Positions 2,173-9,135 of a stretch of 44,366 nucleotides of DNA are shown piece after piece. The stretch's first letter is position 1. Each line of letters begins with the position of its first letter. The translations under genes and the position numbers were made by a program. Under the pieces are notes generated by a model, which did no database searches, was not told the origin of the DNA, and saw only the letters and a list, made by a program, of their open reading frames with translations. Location of the stretch: IMG/VR virus record IMGVR_UViG_3300010397_000059, positions 1 to 44,366 of that record; one strand, given 5' to 3'. The DNA comes from a virus.

Positions 2173-4098
2173 TTACTCCTTTGTGGCGGGGGTGAAACGC
2201 ATGAATTTCGGGAGCCAGCGCGCGAGCAGCGGTTTTGCGTGCGCGGCGAGCTCGATTTTTTTCATCTTGTCGGTGGCGGCGAGATCGACCTTGGTGATTC
2301 CTGCGTCGGCCATGGCGGCGCGGATGAAGTCGGCGGAAATGCGGCTCAGGTAGCCATCGCCGGCGCTCCAGCGCGTCGACATGTCCAAATTGAGCGAGGA
2401 TGCCAGTGCCGCTGCACGCCGGTTCTTTTCGTCGGCGACGACGCCGTCGATCGATTCGGCGATGCAGAACGCGAGCACGCGTGAGACGGGGCTATCCTGC
2501 GTTTTCAGCCAGCCGAGCAGCTCGGCTGCTTTCTTCGGCAGCAGTGCCTTGAGTGCTTCGCGCTCCGCGCAAAGCTTGGCGATATCTGGGTTGCCGGTGA
2601 TATCGATGCCGAGCGCCTCGGCGCGTGCTTTCTGCGATCCATTGCTCCGGTACTCGCTCGGCGCGCCGAGCTGGACTGGATCGTCCAACCATGTCGAGGA
2701 GGCGCTATAGAACTGCGCCAGCGCTAGCTTGTGCGTCAGCGCGATGATTGCCATGCCCGGATTGGCGATCAGCTCGGCGGCGATCGCAAACGTCACGTTG
2801 GCGCTCAGCTCGCGCGTCAGCGCTTCGGAATGCCAGGCGCCGGACTTGATGTCTTTCGCCTTTTCCTTGGCCTTGGTGGCTTTGGTTTCCTTGTCGACCT
2901 TCAGCTTGCCTTTGACCAGGCCGCGCAGGATCTCGAGCTCGCCATTCTCGAGCGTGATGATCGCGCCGGCGGTCGAGAGTACGGTCGGCGAATAGGTCGC
3001 GAGATCCGCCTCGATCGAGCGCAGTTCGCTGCCGATATCGGCGACGCGATTTTCGAGATCTTCGAACTTGTCGAAATCCTCGTCGTCATGCGTTTCGTTC
3101 AACTGCTTTTCGAGCGCGTTGCGCTCGGCCGTGAGTTGCTTAATGCGTTTGCGCTCGACATCGGTCGGTTTGCGCTTGCCGGTCGGTTGCGCAGTCGAGA
3201 ATTGGCTGCGCTCGTCGTACGGAAACGTCGGGCGCACGTCCACCCATGACCAGGCCTCCTTGCGCACGCGCTCGGCAATCTCCTCGAGCTTGGCGGCGGC
3301 CAGGGATTGCAGCAGCCGGCCGTCGACGATGTATCCTGCATTGCTGTCGCTGAACAGATCGCGATGCACGACGCCGCCGGCGCGCTCGTAAGCCTGCACA
3401 CCGACGAACTTGGCAAGCGGATCCTCGCTGGCATCGATCTCCGTCGCGGTGAGCGCTTTGCGCAAGCGATCGGCGCTACGCTGCCAGGGCTGTTCGGCCT
3501 TGAACCAGACGGTTTCCTGTGCCGCATGATCGTCGCTGATGGCGAGCGCCATCATCTGATCCATGTCCATCTGATCAGTGCGGAACAGCTCGAATAACTT
3601 GGGCGAAACGTTGGCCAGCTTCAGGCGGCGTTGCACAACGATCGGTGTGACGCCAAAGCGCGCGGCAATATCCTCGATCGACTTACCGGCATCGATCATG
3701 GATTGGAACGCGACGAATTCGTCGGCCGGGTGCATTGCCTCGCGAATGGAGTTCTCGGCCATGCTGGCGGTTAGCGCCTGCGCTTCCTCGATCACGCGGC
3801 ATGGCACTTCGTAGTCGGTCTGGAGCACTCCATCACTGACCAGTTTGTACAACGCACGCAGGCGCCGGCTCCCTGCTATCACCTGGTAACTCTGCAATTC
3901 CTCGGCGCCGGCGAGCGGTGCATCCGGATCCGGCACGACCGTGAGGTTCTGCAGTAGGCCTTCGGCCGCGATCGATGCGGCCAGGGCATCGATGCTGATG
4001 CCGTTGGTCTTGCGCACGCCGTGCGCGATTGGATTCAGCCGGGAAATCGGTACGAAGATCAGGCGCGGTTCGAGCGCCGGGGTAGTAAGTTGGTTCAT
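2173..4098 (-). CDS. ParB/RepB/Spo0J-family protein
   Basis: A 641-residue ParB-like protein. Residues ~10-125 form the ParB N-terminal domain with the arginine motif IAGSRRLRALY (the CTP-binding box in ParB) and AENSIREAMHPADE. An HTH follows (IEDIAARFGVTPIVVQRRLKLA). The long C-terminal half contains a charged stretch (~residues 300-420) and an unrecognised Ala-rich helical region. The ATG at 4098 overlaps the RT stop (ATGA) and has AAAGG upstream, so it is coupled to the DGR reverse transcriptase. Partition, DNA clustering or regulation are possible; no ParA gene is present here. A role in the DGR is inference only. Confidence 0.88.
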   Translation of the reverse strand: MNQLTTPALEPRLIFVPISRLNPIAHGVRKTNGISIDALAASIAAEGLLQNLTVVPDPDAPLAGAEELQSYQVIAGSRRLRALYKLVSDGVLQTDYEVPCRVIEEAQALTASMAENSIREAMHPADEFVAFQSMIDAGKSIEDIAARFGVTPIVVQRRLKLANVSPKLFELFRTDQMDMDQMMALAISDDHAAQETVWFKAEQPWQRSADRLRKALTATEIDASEDPLAKFVGVQAYERAGGVVHRDLFSDSNAGYIVDGRLLQSLAAAKLEEIAERVRKEAWSWVDVRPTFPYDERSQFSTAQPTGKRKPTDVERKRIKQLTAERNALEKQLNETHDDEDFDKFEDLENRVADIGSELRSIEADLATYSPTVLSTAGAIITLENGELEILRGLVKGKLKVDKETKATKAKEKAKDIKSGAWHSEALTRELSANVTFAIAAELIANPGMAIIALTHKLALAQFYSASSTWLDDPVQLGAPSEYRSNGSQKARAEALGIDITGNPDIAKLCAEREALKALLPKKAAELLGWLKTQDSPVSRVLAFCIAESIDGVVADEKNRRAAALASSLNLDMSTRWSAGDGYLSRISADFIRAAMADAGITKVDLAATDKMKKIELAAHAKPLLARWLPKFMRFTPATKE

Positions 4099-5345
4099 GG
4101 GAATGCCTTTGCGCATTGGCGCAGTTGGGAAGAAAGAACGAACGCGGCAGCATGGGAAAAATGGCCGAGGTAACTGGCGAGCACGGATGCGCGAGCCGGC
4201 TGATCCGCCGTGCGCACCGCCGAAAATGCGTGCCGGACGACACGCCGGCGAACGCGCGTGTGCGTCGGATAGATGACATAGCCGAGAAAATCGATGCCGG
4301 CGGACAATGGTCGCAGCGGCGCGTTGGGTTTCAGCTCGAGGCGAAGGCGCTCGCGCAGGAATGCTGCAATCTGTGCCTGCCAGTGCTCGAGCTGTGCGCG
4401 GTCGCGGTGCACGAGCACGAAGTCATCGACATAGCGCAAATACCGCTGGGCCTTGAGTTCGCGCTTGACGAACTGGTCGAGCGCGTCCAGATAGACGTTC
4501 GCAAAGAATTGGCTCGAAAGGTTCCCGATCGGCAGGCCGCAGCCAGGCGCTGCGTTTTCCAGGCGCTTGTGCGCCGGAACGCGCGCACGCTCGGCGGGCG
4601 TCGACCGGTAAATGACGCGCTGGCGCAGCGTGGATTCGCGCAATAGCGAATGCGTGATGCGTTGCGCCAGGAGTGGTAAGCCGCGCCGTTGCATCTTGCG
4701 CTTGAGCATCGCCCATAGCGTCGGGCGATGAATCGAATTGAAGAAATTGCGAACGTCGAGCTGCAGGTACCAACCCCCGCATTGCCCGCTATGGACTTCG
4801 CGCACGAAGCCGCGCAACCGAGTCACTGCGGCATGCGTGCCTTTGCCGACGCGATTGGCGTAGCTGTCAAATAGAAAGCCTGGCTCGAATAGCGCATCGA
4901 GCTGCGGCACGAGCCAGTGATGCACGATGCGATCGGCAAAATCCGGTGCGTGGATCTCGCGCGCCTTCGGTCGCTGCGCGATGAAACAAGTGGTCGGGCC
5001 GGGCGACCAGGCGCCGGCGTTGATTCGCTGCACCAGGTCTAGCAGGCGATCGATCCAGTTCGTTTCGAACGCCAGCTGGTTATCGCTCGGCACCTTGCGA
5101 CGCCGTGCGGCCTGCCAGGCGTCGAACAGATCGCGGAATGTGACACCCCGATACTCACGGGCACGCGCCGACCGAACGGAGCGCACGAGGCCCTCGTTGT
5201 TCTGGTTGTTGTAGTCGGAATTGCCGTTGTTGAAGTTGACGTTCCACGCGTAGTCCGACGGCGACGAGGCGTCCGGGGACAACACTCGATCCGGCACTTG
5301 CGACCCTGCCGCACAGCTCCTGGGGACGTAGCGCGGCGTCGTCAT
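4095..5345 (-). CDS. DGR reverse transcriptase with in-frame template repeat
   Basis: Makes the mutagenised cDNA of the diversity-generating retroelement, reading the TR with adenine-specific errors. RT motifs: the fingers segment from YRGVTFRDLFDAW (residue ~64), REIHAPDFADRIVHHWL, YANRVGKGTHAA, catalytic Asp in YLQLDVRNFFNSI, the DGR signature LPIGNLSSQFFANVY (group II enzymes have QGxxxSP) and the active site LRYVDDFVLVH, then INFLGY-like IDFLGYVIYPTH. There is no maturase or integrase domain. The total is 416 residues; BPP-1 Brt is about 330. The extra N-terminus encodes the TR in frame. The ATG at 5345 overlaps the Avd stop (ATGA), which supports this start. No in-frame ATG lies between the TR and the RT core. 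Confidence 0.95.
   Translation of the reverse strand: MTTPRYVPRSCAAGSQVPDRVLSPDASSPSDYAWNVNFNNGNSDYNNQNNEGLVRSVRSARAREYRGVTFRDLFDAWQAARRRKVPSDNQLAFETNWIDRLLDLVQRINAGAWSPGPTTCFIAQRPKAREIHAPDFADRIVHHWLVPQLDALFEPGFLFDSYANRVGKGTHAAVTRLRGFVREVHSGQCGGWYLQLDVRNFFNSIHRPTLWAMLKRKMQRRGLPLLAQRITHSLLRESTLRQRVIYRSTPAERARVPAHKRLENAAPGCGLPIGNLSSQFFANVYLDALDQFVKRELKAQRYLRYVDDFVLVHRDRAQLEHWQAQIAAFLRERLRLELKPNAPLRPLSAGIDFLGYVIYPTHTRVRRRVVRHAFSAVRTADQPARASVLASYLGHFSHAAAFVLSSQLRQCAKAFP
5157..5278 (-). repeat. DGR template repeat (TR)
   Basis: A 122-base template with 25 adenines, nine of its codons being AAC or AAT (Asn). Its 3' ~36 bases have no adenine and form the mutation-free initiation region. It matches VR1 (5808-5929), VR2 (6268-6389) and VR3 (8079-8200) over exactly 122 bases, and every difference is at a TR adenine. 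The base just after the block (5156, G on the coding strand) differs from C in all VRs, giving a CGTGAGTA versus CGTCAGTA distinction like IMH* versus IMH. It lies inside the RT ORF (codons ~23-63). Confidence 0.97.
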
Positions 5346-5779
5346 GGATTGGCCTCAAAGAGCGAGGCGGCCGAATCACTCAGTATCTGGGCACGCTGCT
5401 GCGGCGCCCTACCGGCGCCGGCATTCTGGCCCTTGGGGTGCTGCTGTTTGAACCAACCGCCGACCTGGCAGCCGAGCTCGGCGGCTGTGCGCACGAGCGC
5501 TTCGAATTGCGCGAAGCTGGCAAACGCGCGAATGCGGCTGCCGATCTGCAGGTTGAGCTTCAGATCATCGACCGCCCATACGAGCTTGCGTGTCCATTCC
5601 TGCCGATGTGCGCCATCGCGCCAAGCACGATGCGCAAATTGCGCGATCTGCATTGCGCGTTTGCGCAGATCGGTGCCGATCGAGTACTTGTGATAGCGCG
5701 CAAAGCGGCGAACCGCCTGCTCGATGTCAACGAGCAGGCGTTCGGCCAATTTCACGATCGGTGGCAATGAAAAGGACAT
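5342..5779 (-). CDS. avd: Avd-like DGR accessory protein
   Basis: A 145-residue, predominantly helical basic protein directly upstream of the RT. Avd proteins are pentameric four-helix bundles that bind RT and RNA and are required for mutagenic cDNA synthesis. Visible helical segments include VKLAERLLVDIEQAVRRF, LRKRAMQIAQFAHRAWRD (the usual conserved LR..a..i..A helix) and KLVWAVDDLKLNLQIG. A Gln/Gly/Ala-rich tail follows. Its stop overlaps the RT start (ATGA), and it starts 22 bases after VR1's gene. The assignment rests on size, helix pattern and DGR context. Confidence 0.85.
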   Translation of the reverse strand: MSFSLPPIVKLAERLLVDIEQAVRRFARYHKYSIGTDLRKRAMQIAQFAHRAWRDGAHRQEWTRKLVWAVDDLKLNLQIGSRIRAFASFAQFEALVRTAAELGCQVGGWFKQQHPKGQNAGAGRAPQQRAQILSDSAASLFEANP

Positions 5780-5801: not shown

Positions 5802-6221
5802 TTACTGACGGGCACGCGCCGACCGAACGGAGCGCACGAGGCCCTCGCCGCTCTGGCCGCCGTAGTCGGAATAGCCGAAGCTGAAGTAGACGTACCACGC
5901 GAAGTCCGACGGCGACGAGGCGTCCGGGGTACTCGACCAGTACCAATCCGATTGCAGACTGAGCGCGGGATCGGCGGCCGGCCCATAGAGGGTGCGATCG
6001 CGCAGCGATTCCAATTCTTCGATGGTCGGCAAGCGCCAGTCGTCAAAGCCGGCTATGCCAGCCTCTGCTGCGACTTTATTTGCGTCCGCCCAATTGTGCC
6101 GGCCGGCAAGATCCTGCGCTGCCCACATTAAGCCGGTTTTCTTATCGAGCAAGGCGATCGCCTTGGCGCGGCTGCCTGCTGCGAGCGGCTTGCCATTCTT
6201 CCCAAGTTTCGTGAGATTCAT
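5802..6221 (-). CDS. DGR variable protein 1 (DUF1566-like lectin fold)
   Basis: A 139-residue target of the DGR. The core shows DUF1566/Lcl-type signatures: TGLMWA, NWADANKVA, DDWRLPTIEELESL, then WYWSSTPDASSPS leading into the variable segment and the invariant end LVRSVRSARARQ. DUF1566 resembles the C-type-lectin-like fold that displays DGR variable residues on a ligand-binding face. Variable residues here read F, Y, Y, S, F, Y, G, G, S, G. There is no signal peptide or membrane segment. The ATG at 6221 is preceded by GAGG. It lies 40 bases after VR2's gene and 22 before avd. The ligand is unknown. Confidence 0.92.
   Translation of the reverse strand: MNLTKLGKNGKPLAAGSRAKAIALLDKKTGLMWAAQDLAGRHNWADANKVAAEAGIAGFDDWRLPTIEELESLRDRTLYGPAADPALSLQSDWYWSSTPDASSPSDFAWYVYFSFGYSDYGGQSGEGLVRSVRSARARQ
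5808..5929 (-). repeat. DGR variable repeat 1 (VR1)
   Basis: A 122-base copy of the TR with 14 substitutions, all at TR adenines (to T or G). The last ~36 bases are identical to the TR. It is followed by CAG TAA, ending the gene, and then the VR-specific flank AATTGGCTTTTTGG. Confidence 0.97.
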
Positions 6222-6261: not shown

Positions 6262-6705
6262 TTACTGACGGGCACGCGCCGACCGAACGGAGCGCACGAG
6301 GCCCCCGTTGTCCTGGAGGTCGTAGTCGGAATAGCCGCCGTCGAAGTTGACGCTCCACGCGTAGCCCGACGGCGACGAGGCGTCCGGGGTGCTCGACCAG
6401 AACCACGGGTAGCCATTTTCAGGAAGGCGGAAAAAGGTTGTGTCGATGGCTGGATCGAAGCGCGCGTAATCGACGATCGACAGCAGCTCCTGGATCGTCG
6501 GCAGGCGCCAGTCATCATTGCCGCCGATGCGTTGCGCCGGCGCGTAATTCTTGGCAGCGTTCCACTTCATGCGCTCGCCGAGCGCGTCGGCCATCCAGAC
6601 TAGGCCAGTGGCGTTATCACGCACCTGCGACCATGTTGAGGCGTCGGCGGGCAGTTCGTTGTTGGCGTCGTCGAGTTTGACGAAGCGCGGATTTGACTCG
6701 GACAT
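6262..6705 (-). CDS. DGR variable protein 2 (DUF1566-like lectin fold)
   Basis: A 147-residue second target. Same architecture as variable protein 1 with a diverged N-terminal two thirds: TGLVWMADALGE, DDWRLPTIQELLSIVDYA, FDPAIDTTFF, WFWSSTPDASSPSG, then the variable strand and LVRSVRSARARQ. Variable residues read G, S, N, D, G, Y, D, L, D, N, plus a Glu-to-Gly change at GAG. There is no signal peptide. The start at 6705 has GAGGGAA upstream. DWRLPT and FDPAID are hallmarks of DUF1566 domains. It is probably a small single-domain binding protein. Confidence 0.92.
   Translation of the reverse strand: MSESNPRFVKLDDANNELPADASTWSQVRDNATGLVWMADALGERMKWNAAKNYAPAQRIGGNDDWRLPTIQELLSIVDYARFDPAIDTTFFRLPENGYPWFWSSTPDASSPSGYAWSVNFDGGYSDYDLQDNGGLVRSVRSARARQ
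6268..6389 (-). repeat. DGR variable repeat 2 (VR2)
   Basis: A 122-base copy of the TR with 11 substitutions, all at TR adenines (to G, T or C), including one in the GAG codon. It is followed by CAGTAA and AATCGGCCTTTTGG. The 5' edge of homology is CCCCGG, as in the other repeats. Confidence 0.97.
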
Positions 6706-8072: not shown

Positions 8073-8495
8073 TTACTGACGGGCACGCGCCGACCGAACG
8101 GAGCGCACGAGGCCCTCGTGGCTCTGGAGGTGGTAGTCGGAAAAGCCGCTGCCGAAGCCGACGTCCCACGCGTAGCCCGACGGCGACGAGGCGACCGGGG
8201 TGCTGGTCCAGCACCAGCCGCCTTTGGTCTTGAAGAAATCCGTGTCGATCGCCGGATCAAAGCGCGAATCGTCGACGAGCGTGAGCAGCTCCTTGCGCGT
8301 TGGCATGCGCCAATCGGTGAAGCCGGCGAGGTCGAGTTCCGCCGCCAGCTTAGGTGCTTTCGCGAAGGTCGCGTGCTTGGACAGCTCCGCGCGCGGCCAC
8401 ATGAGATCGGTTTCTGTATCGAGCACGGCAACCCATTCGGCTGCCTCGTGCGGAAGCTGTTCGCCAGTGCTGCTGATCTTGATGAAGCGGCTCAT
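8073..8495 (-). CDS. DGR variable protein 3 (DUF1566-like lectin fold)
   Basis: A 140-residue third target. The start at the ATG at 8495 is supported by AAAGGAG eight bases upstream and by an ATGA overlap with the preceding gene. DUF1566 signatures are TDLMWPRAEL, FTDWRMPTRKELLTLVDDS, FDPAIDTDFF and WCWTSTPVASSPSG, then the variable segment and LVRSVRSARARQ. Variable residues read V, G, D, G, G, S, F, H, L, S, H. It lacks a signal peptide. It is separated from the other two targets by the hydrolase block, so the DGR acts on targets up to 3 kb from the TR. Confidence 0.92.
   Translation of the reverse strand: MSRFIKISSTGEQLPHEAAEWVAVLDTETDLMWPRAELSKHATFAKAPKLAAELDLAGFTDWRMPTRKELLTLVDDSRFDPAIDTDFFKTKGGWCWTSTPVASSPSGYAWDVGFGSGFSDYHLQSHEGLVRSVRSARARQ
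8079..8200 (-). repeat. DGR variable repeat 3 (VR3)
   Basis: A 122-base copy of the TR with 15 substitutions, all at TR adenines, including the first adenine of the repeat (GAC to GTC). It is followed by CAGTAA and AATTGGCCTTTTGG. It is the most diverged of the three VRs. Confidence 0.97.
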
Positions 8496-8707
8496 GGTGT
8501 GACTCCTTTGCGCCACAGACGATCCTCGGCCGCGCGGCGCGCAAGTTCAGCCGTCGCGAAATGCTCGAGGCGCGAGCCGTGGTTGTTTTCGGTGGCGAGC
8601 GCGGCATACGTGCCGCAGTCGTGAACGGTGACGAGCTCGCCGCAGCCATGCGTGGCGCAGAACTGCAGGCCGTCCATGTCGGGGTCTGTCCATAGGTATG
8701 CGCTCAT
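8492..8707 (-). CDS. Hypothetical protein, 71 aa
   Basis: Starts at the ATG at 8707, overlapping the pilin stop (ATGA), and ends in an ATGA overlap with variable protein 3. It thus links the pilin and a DGR target in one coupled unit. It begins [17 protein letters not shown] and contains [15 protein letters not shown] (three Cys, two His), perhaps a small metal site, then a charged helix. No family was recognised. Confidence 0.65.
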
Positions 8708-9135
8708 GGACGGCAGCCAGTGGGCAGGTACTTGAGCGCGATCGTGCTGCTCGAGCACGTCCAGACCACCGATCCGGCATCGGGCGCGAACGTCGGCGAT
8801 AAGGACAATGTCTGTCCGACAACCGCTTCGTTGACCTGGTTGCCGTATTTGACGGTGATCACGCCGTCGACCACGTCAAGCTCGGTCACGAACTTGCCGG
8901 TGATGCTGGTGGGTGCTGCGAGCCCGGCGATCGTGTTATCAGCGGGCGGAGTGCCGGTATGGCTGTAGACGTCAGCGACGGCCGTCTTGGCGCCATCGGC
9001 AATAACGATGCCTTCGGACACCTGGGAGCGGATGACGTAGTCCTGGTAGGCGGGGATGGCGATAGCGGCCAGGACGGCGATGATCGCGACCACGATCATC
9101 AGTTCGATCAGGGTGAAGCCGGTGGCACGTTTCAT
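8704..9135 (-). CDS. Type IV major pilin (PilA-like)
   Basis: A complete 143-residue type IVa pilin. A short leader MKRATG precedes the prepilin peptidase site [19 protein letters not shown] with the invariant Glu5, the N-terminal alpha helix [16 protein letters not shown], a beta-rich globular domain, and a C-terminal disulfide loop between Cys of VVWTCSS and Cys of LPTGCRP. It would be inserted in the inner membrane, processed by the host PilD and assembled into host pili. No pilus assembly genes are nearby, so it depends on the host. A pilin in a phage is unusual; many phages use type IV pili as receptors. Confidence 0.93.

Follow-up and report, generated by a model that had tools for sequence, protein, structure and literature searches.

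In the DGR of Bordetella phage BPP-1, the 3′ spacer that follows the template repeat (TR) recruits bRT-Avd and primes cDNA, according to the available text of PMC12875486. The DiGReF paper describes a structural group 3, defined by overlap of the TR with either end, 5′ or 3′, of the reverse transcriptase (RT) ORF; in one section of that paper, the TR and RT RNAs were inferred to be separately transcribed and their spatial arrangement to be irrelevant (PMC3521204). For the Pseudoalteromonas phages ACA1 and ACA2, a 2023 report explicitly describes a translated TR that extends the RT at its N-terminus (PMC10612066). Here we analysed a DGR on a viral sequence of 44,366 nt (positions 1–44,366 of IMG/VR record IMGVR_UViG_3300010397_000059, called the window below), in which the TR also appears to be read as the start of its own RT and in which the same bases belong to a covarying RNA.

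Judged from its genes and repeats, the minus strand of the window carries a complete DGR with three targets, avd, TR and RT:

8073–8516, minus strand: target 3, an Lcl_C (DUF1566) lectin-type protein; VR3 at 8074–8200
6262–6705, minus strand: target 2, an Lcl_C (DUF1566) lectin-type protein; VR2 at 6263–6389
5802–6221, minus strand: target 1, an Lcl_C (DUF1566) lectin-type protein; VR1 at 5803–5929
5342–5779, minus strand: avd, the Avd accessory protein (145 aa; phrog_3206, E 7.5e-15)
5342–5345, minus strand: ATGA overlap of the RT start codon (5345–5343) with the avd stop codon (5344–5342)
4095–5345, minus strand: RT ORF (416 aa), with residues 1–22 pre-TR, residues 23–65 TR-encoded and the core from about residue 67
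5279–5345, minus strand: pre-TR part of the RT ORF, codons 1–22 and the first base of codon 23; it holds the 3′ strand of helix P3 and both strands of helix P4
5152–5278, minus strand: TR, 127 nt, in the RT frame and matching VR1, VR2 and VR3

Each VR lies at the C-terminus of a C-type-lectin-like target, here the three Lcl_C proteins. Matches of the avd product to the Avd models of NCBIfam (NF033474, E 1.7e-8) and Pfam fall below the cutoffs of those models. The RT matches phrog_1423 (E 1.8e-93), Pfam RVT_1 spans its residues 127–340, the DGR-group motif (I/L/V)GxxxSQ is present as IGNLSSQ at residues 273–279, and YVDD occupies residues 305–308. Its best PDB match is 8ub7 (E 9e-40), with an alignment that begins at RT residue 68, opposite residue 13 of 8ub7_A; the title of this chain is only 'Reverse transcriptase', and we take it to be BPP-1 bRT. 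The stop codon of the RT and the start of a ParB-like ORF of 647 aa (phrog_7783) overlap (window 4095–4116, minus strand), so that avd, RT and the ParB-like ORF look translationally coupled. A type IV pilin gene (8704–9135, minus strand; Pfam Pilin E 2e-25, N_methyl E 1e-8) lies beside the DGR targets; the pilin was rejected as a regular DGR partner, as a prepilin motif was found in 0 of the 93 other clade loci examined.

Comparison of the TR with the three VRs showed that 40 of 43 mismatches fall at TR adenines, which make up 27 of the 127 TR sites (binomial p = 8e-24). The sole non-adenine difference is a G-to-C change at 5156 that is common to all three VRs. In the window and in its clade, the 3′ end of the repeat reads GTCAGT in the VR and GTGAGT in the TR, the distinction expected between IMH and IMH*; the VR sequence mostly runs from GTCAGT into a stop codon, whereas the TR has no stop and its frame continues. 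The same few bases thus set the donor apart from the recipient repeat, drop the lectin stop and so permit read-through into the RT, and supply one strand of helix P1 (see below). A similar T-rich segment (TTGGCCTTTTGG-like) is found just after each of VR1–VR3 (at 5802, 6262 and 8073 and below) and could form a small stem-loop; in BPP-1, a stem-loop downstream of the VR is required.

An initial annotation of this DNA had placed the beginning of the RT ORF in the ATGA overlap with avd and had proposed that the TR, taken to span 5157–5345, is translated as the N-terminus of its own RT. The start is as described: apart from the ATG at 5345, no ATG precedes the RT core, and the frame that opens there crosses the TR, so that no in-frame ATG intervenes between TR and core, as had also been noted. 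The TR does lie inside the RT ORF, but the repeat proper is the 127 nt listed above and the remainder, 5279–5345, is pre-TR sequence. Other in-frame start-type codons upstream of the TR are GTG at RT residues 17 and 21 and TTG at residue 22; an in-frame GTG occurs further on at residue 54, inside the TR, and another at residue 85, inside the RT core. The accompanying view that a TR is normally located outside the RT gene is broadly correct, although DGRs whose TR overlaps the 5′ end of the RT have been described as a class (PMC3521204).

In order to follow the frame in relatives of this DGR, 160 RT relatives were collected from IMG/VR as well as from genomes of bacteria and archaea by exact peptide patterns, which makes them a non-random sample. 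The nearest relatives in cellular genomes come mostly from Rhodanobacter, Dyella, Stenotrophomonas, Xanthomonas and related genera. A repeat search tolerant of changes at adenines located the TR in most of the 160, where it usually ends no more than ∼22 nt from the RT core. The window belongs to a clade of ∼100 DGRs (RT identity ∼54–73%), with 101 loci in which the avd stop was located and 94 distinct loci; in a quick tree search with RT cores, the clade was monophyletic, with one split and a support of 100. The gap between TR and RT core is 0–22 nt in almost all of its members. The avd-overlapping ATGA is the same throughout the clade, the starts being ATGACGA-like with a single GTGA; in one locus (L029), which the avd search had missed, the RNA model located the ATGACGA start, again in frame. 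A G-rich, Shine-Dalgarno-like sequence precedes the start in 92 of 94 relatives.

The distance from the avd stop to the RT core ranges from 149 to 212 nt among the 101 clade loci and takes 21 values, all of them in one frame, while at least 42 changes of this distance are required on the RT-core tree. In 45 outgroup loci, the same distance falls into all three frames (19, 14 and 12 loci). Across the region, the RT frame is open in all 94 distinct loci, compared with 0 and 6 of the 94 for the other two frames; a homologue with a stop codon in the TR frame, named by the initial annotation as grounds for refutation, was looked for among the 94 and none was found. The comparison of homologues that it had suggested therefore came out in its favour, since the ATG-to-core frame was kept through all of these length changes. 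Passage between the fused and the stop-in-TR state accounts for one change among the scored tips of the tree. A GTG or TTG falls within the TR of most relatives, the window included, so that an additional internal start is conceivable there; in five loci, however, all three start-type codons (ATG, GTG and TTG) are missing between the start of the TR and position +60 of the core, and in 46 they are missing from the TR end onwards. Taken together, the single frame, its repeated maintenance, the open frame in every distinct locus and the five loci lacking another start argue strongly that translation begins where avd and RT overlap and continues across the TR into the RT.

The initial annotation had also allowed for a non-standard RT start downstream of the TR. 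If the RT were made from an internal non-ATG codon near the TR 3′ end, most of the TR would be untranslated in the RT, and the window does offer a candidate, the GTG of residue 54 at −33 with GAGGG ∼5 nt upstream, as do the many relatives with GTG or TTG in the 3′ part of the TR. However, the positions of these codons are not conserved and the loci that lack them have just been described; moreover, an internal start leaves unexplained both the upkeep of the ATG-to-core frame and the avd-overlapping start in every clade member, so that we regard it as very unlikely. Less credible still is a by-product explanation, in which the TR is kept open for the sake of the lectin genes and is in phase with the RT by chance. 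Lectin and RT frames coincide in ∼95% of loci, as such an explanation would have it, but in five loci (L053, L061, L072, L076 and L095) the TR frame, assigned by inspection of translations, differs from that of the locus's own VRs, the RT frame is regained after the TR and the frame from ATG to core is open all the same. This shift occurred in at least four changes on the tree. In addition, the pre-TR segment, which is not copied, also keeps the frame, and the outgroup distances scatter over three frames despite the same lectin constraint on TRs. We reject the by-product explanation on the strength of the shifted-frame loci. Considering that these loci keep the ATG-to-core frame, it is evidently the translation that is conserved and not the lectin peptide; the earlier suggestion that the RT carries an unmutated lectin strand describes an unconserved feature, since the shifted loci encode a Thr-rich peptide instead.

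With translation from the avd overlap as the preferred reading, selection might act on the TR-encoded tail as a protein element of the RT, such as a stretch rich in Asn or in basic residues that contacts template RNA or Avd. As this would predict, every clade member has a tail, and the tail end is frequently basic. On the other hand, the Thr-rich tails of the shifted-frame loci have a different chemistry, frame continuity needs a tail in any case, and AlphaFold2 predicts the tail to be disordered, with low confidence over RT residues 1–65, high confidence from about residue 68 and values mostly above 90 in the core. Furthermore, synonymous codon identity is raised over RT residues 1–66 (ratio 1.3–1.9 in blocks) and returns to ∼1 from residue 67, which points to constraint at the nucleotide level. 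We consider selection on the tail peptide unlikely, and from the shifted-frame tails and the structure prediction we read the ∼65 residues as a tolerated passenger, flexible and probably incidental.

The nucleotide-level constraint was examined in an alignment of 72 diverse clade members that extends from the end of avd up to the RT core. Folding of this alignment gave five helices, P0–P4, with the following positions in the window:

5402–5420, minus strand: hairpin in the avd coding region in the minimum-energy fold of the window, the probable equivalent of P0
5382–5387, minus strand: 5′ strand of P1 (GATACT), inside avd; clade consensus GANACT
5370–5376, minus strand: 5′ strand of P3 (ATTCGGC), in avd; each of the 7 pairs of P3 shows compensatory changes, and 97.4% of cells pair
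5365–5368 paired with 5352–5355, minus strand: P2 hairpin, with the Shine-Dalgarno sequence of the RT as its 3′ strand
5352–5356, minus strand: Shine-Dalgarno sequence GAGG(C) of the RT start
5308–5337, minus strand: P4 hairpin, downstream of the RT start codon; compensatory changes in 5 of 6 pairs
5289–5295, minus strand: 3′ strand of P3 (GCCGGAT), in the pre-TR segment, supported by covariation
5150–5155, minus strand: 3′ strand of P1 (AGTATC), at the TR 3′ edge in RT codons 64–66; clade consensus AGTNTC

The helix set comprises 28 pairs, of which 22 show changes on both sides, and 96.1% of alignment cells are paired. Its covariation score was 0.443, compared with 0.147 ± 0.008 in shuffles (reached in 0 of 500, with related sequences treated as independent) and with at most 0.117 when the helices were slid along the alignment. 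P1, paired in 99.3% of cells, pairs the end of avd with the bases that directly follow the TR and closes a loop that contains both the RT start and the TR; its variable pair occurs as CG (24), AU (23), UA (11), UG (10) and GC (3). P0 covaries in the relatives, the window row being out of register in that part of the alignment. A known RNA family was rejected as the identity of the module, as an Rfam search of the window gave no family match at E values up to 5. Since the constraint ends ∼12 nt past the TR, no BPP-1-like 3′ spacer is present: the TR ends at RT codon 65, the window gives no match to RF03022, and a spacer hidden in the codons of the RT core was rejected because synonymous identity is at background from residue 67.

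P1 also exists in outgroup DGRs, where it is formed by other sequences; there, the mean run was 5.3 bp with each locus's own partner versus 3.9 bp with mismatched partners, and the highest shuffle gave 4.4 bp. A model search with P2–P4 found the element upstream of the TR in relatives with an unfused RT, for example L106, L109 and L111. These occurrences indicate that the RNA module predates the RT fusion, and the three unfused loci show that the RNA does not require translation into RT. In the same three loci, a short ORF starts in the RNA module, crosses the TR and ends just after it or, in L111, past an inserted hairpin-like sequence; such ORFs may mark the route by which the fusion arose or was lost.

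Our preferred explanation, to which we give a probability of roughly 85%, places the RT start in the template RNA itself, in its 5′ part upstream of the TR, and has the TR translated into an RT tail while the same avd–TR–RT RNA folds into a template module. Comparison among relatives establishes the translated frame and the helices. Ribosomes finishing avd would reinitiate on the ATG that overlaps its stop and translate first the pre-TR segment, then the TR and finally the core of the RT, which would thereby carry its flexible N-terminal tail. The avd–TR–RT RNA would fold such that P1 ties the avd 3′ end to the nucleotides after the TR, bringing the end of avd alongside the 3′ end of the TR, with P2–P4 around the RT ribosome-binding site and start. 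The folded form would be the template presented to RT and Avd and the unfolded form the message, ribosomes leaving avd unfolding the RNA and exposing the RT start. Since no 3′ spacer is found here, recruitment and priming, if they proceed as in BPP-1, would have to use the 5′ module, and by this analogy the folded module may recruit and prime the RT. The geometry of the helices further suggests that folding hides the RT start, in which case message and template uses would exclude each other. More tentatively, and with odds below even, this would amount to a permuted template RNA, with a 5′ RT-recruiting and priming structure over the avd end and RT start and no 3′ spacer, whose folding hides the ribosome-binding site so that each transcript serves as either message or template. 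Such an arrangement, if true, would provide built-in feedback on the mutation rate. Independently of this reading, the segment is a clear example of a single RNA constrained at once by coding (avd end and RT start), by its role as template (the TR, copied into lectin genes) and by structure (P1–P4), and avd–TR–RT is a naturally compact cassette. For annotation, the RT start in this clade is to be placed upstream of the TR.

A TR that forms the N-terminus of its RT is already known in kind. The clade-wide translation test, the shifted-frame lineages and the 5′ RNA module over the RT start were not found in the open-licence literature searched, as far as the available texts go, and appear to be new. 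The ACA1/ACA2 and VHML/VP58.5 DGR lineage resembles the window in that an ATGA shared with avd provides the RT start codon and the TR is crossed in the RT frame; the records of ACA1 (L174) and VP58.5 (L171) are annotated with the TR inside the RT. However, ACA1 and VP58.5 have ∼127 nt more translated sequence between TR and RT core, whereas in the window the TR abuts the core, and the RT core of that lineage is only ∼31% identical to the window RT. Neither a conserved RNA module nor a frame test was found in the available text of PMC10612066. The window shares with DiGReF group 3 a TR that overlaps an end of the RT ORF, but that group, in the text available, is defined by layout only, whereas in the window clade the layout is tied to one conserved RNA. 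The Rfam RT-15 RNA (RF03018), found in Pseudomonas, Shewanella and Burkholderia phages, is likewise structured and sits between avd and a TR directly adjoining the RT core, although its sequence and model differ from those of the window module. With BPP-1, the window shares the avd–TR–RT order, adenine-directed TR/VR differences and homologous RT and Avd. In BPP-1 (L165), however, the structured RNA lies 3′ of the TR, as the spacer between TR and brt that Rfam RF03022 matches at 2325–2457, whereas the window has no 3′ spacer and carries its covarying RNA 5′ of the TR. This implies a template RNA arranged otherwise than in the best-studied DGR, and bears on how these RTs find and prime their template.
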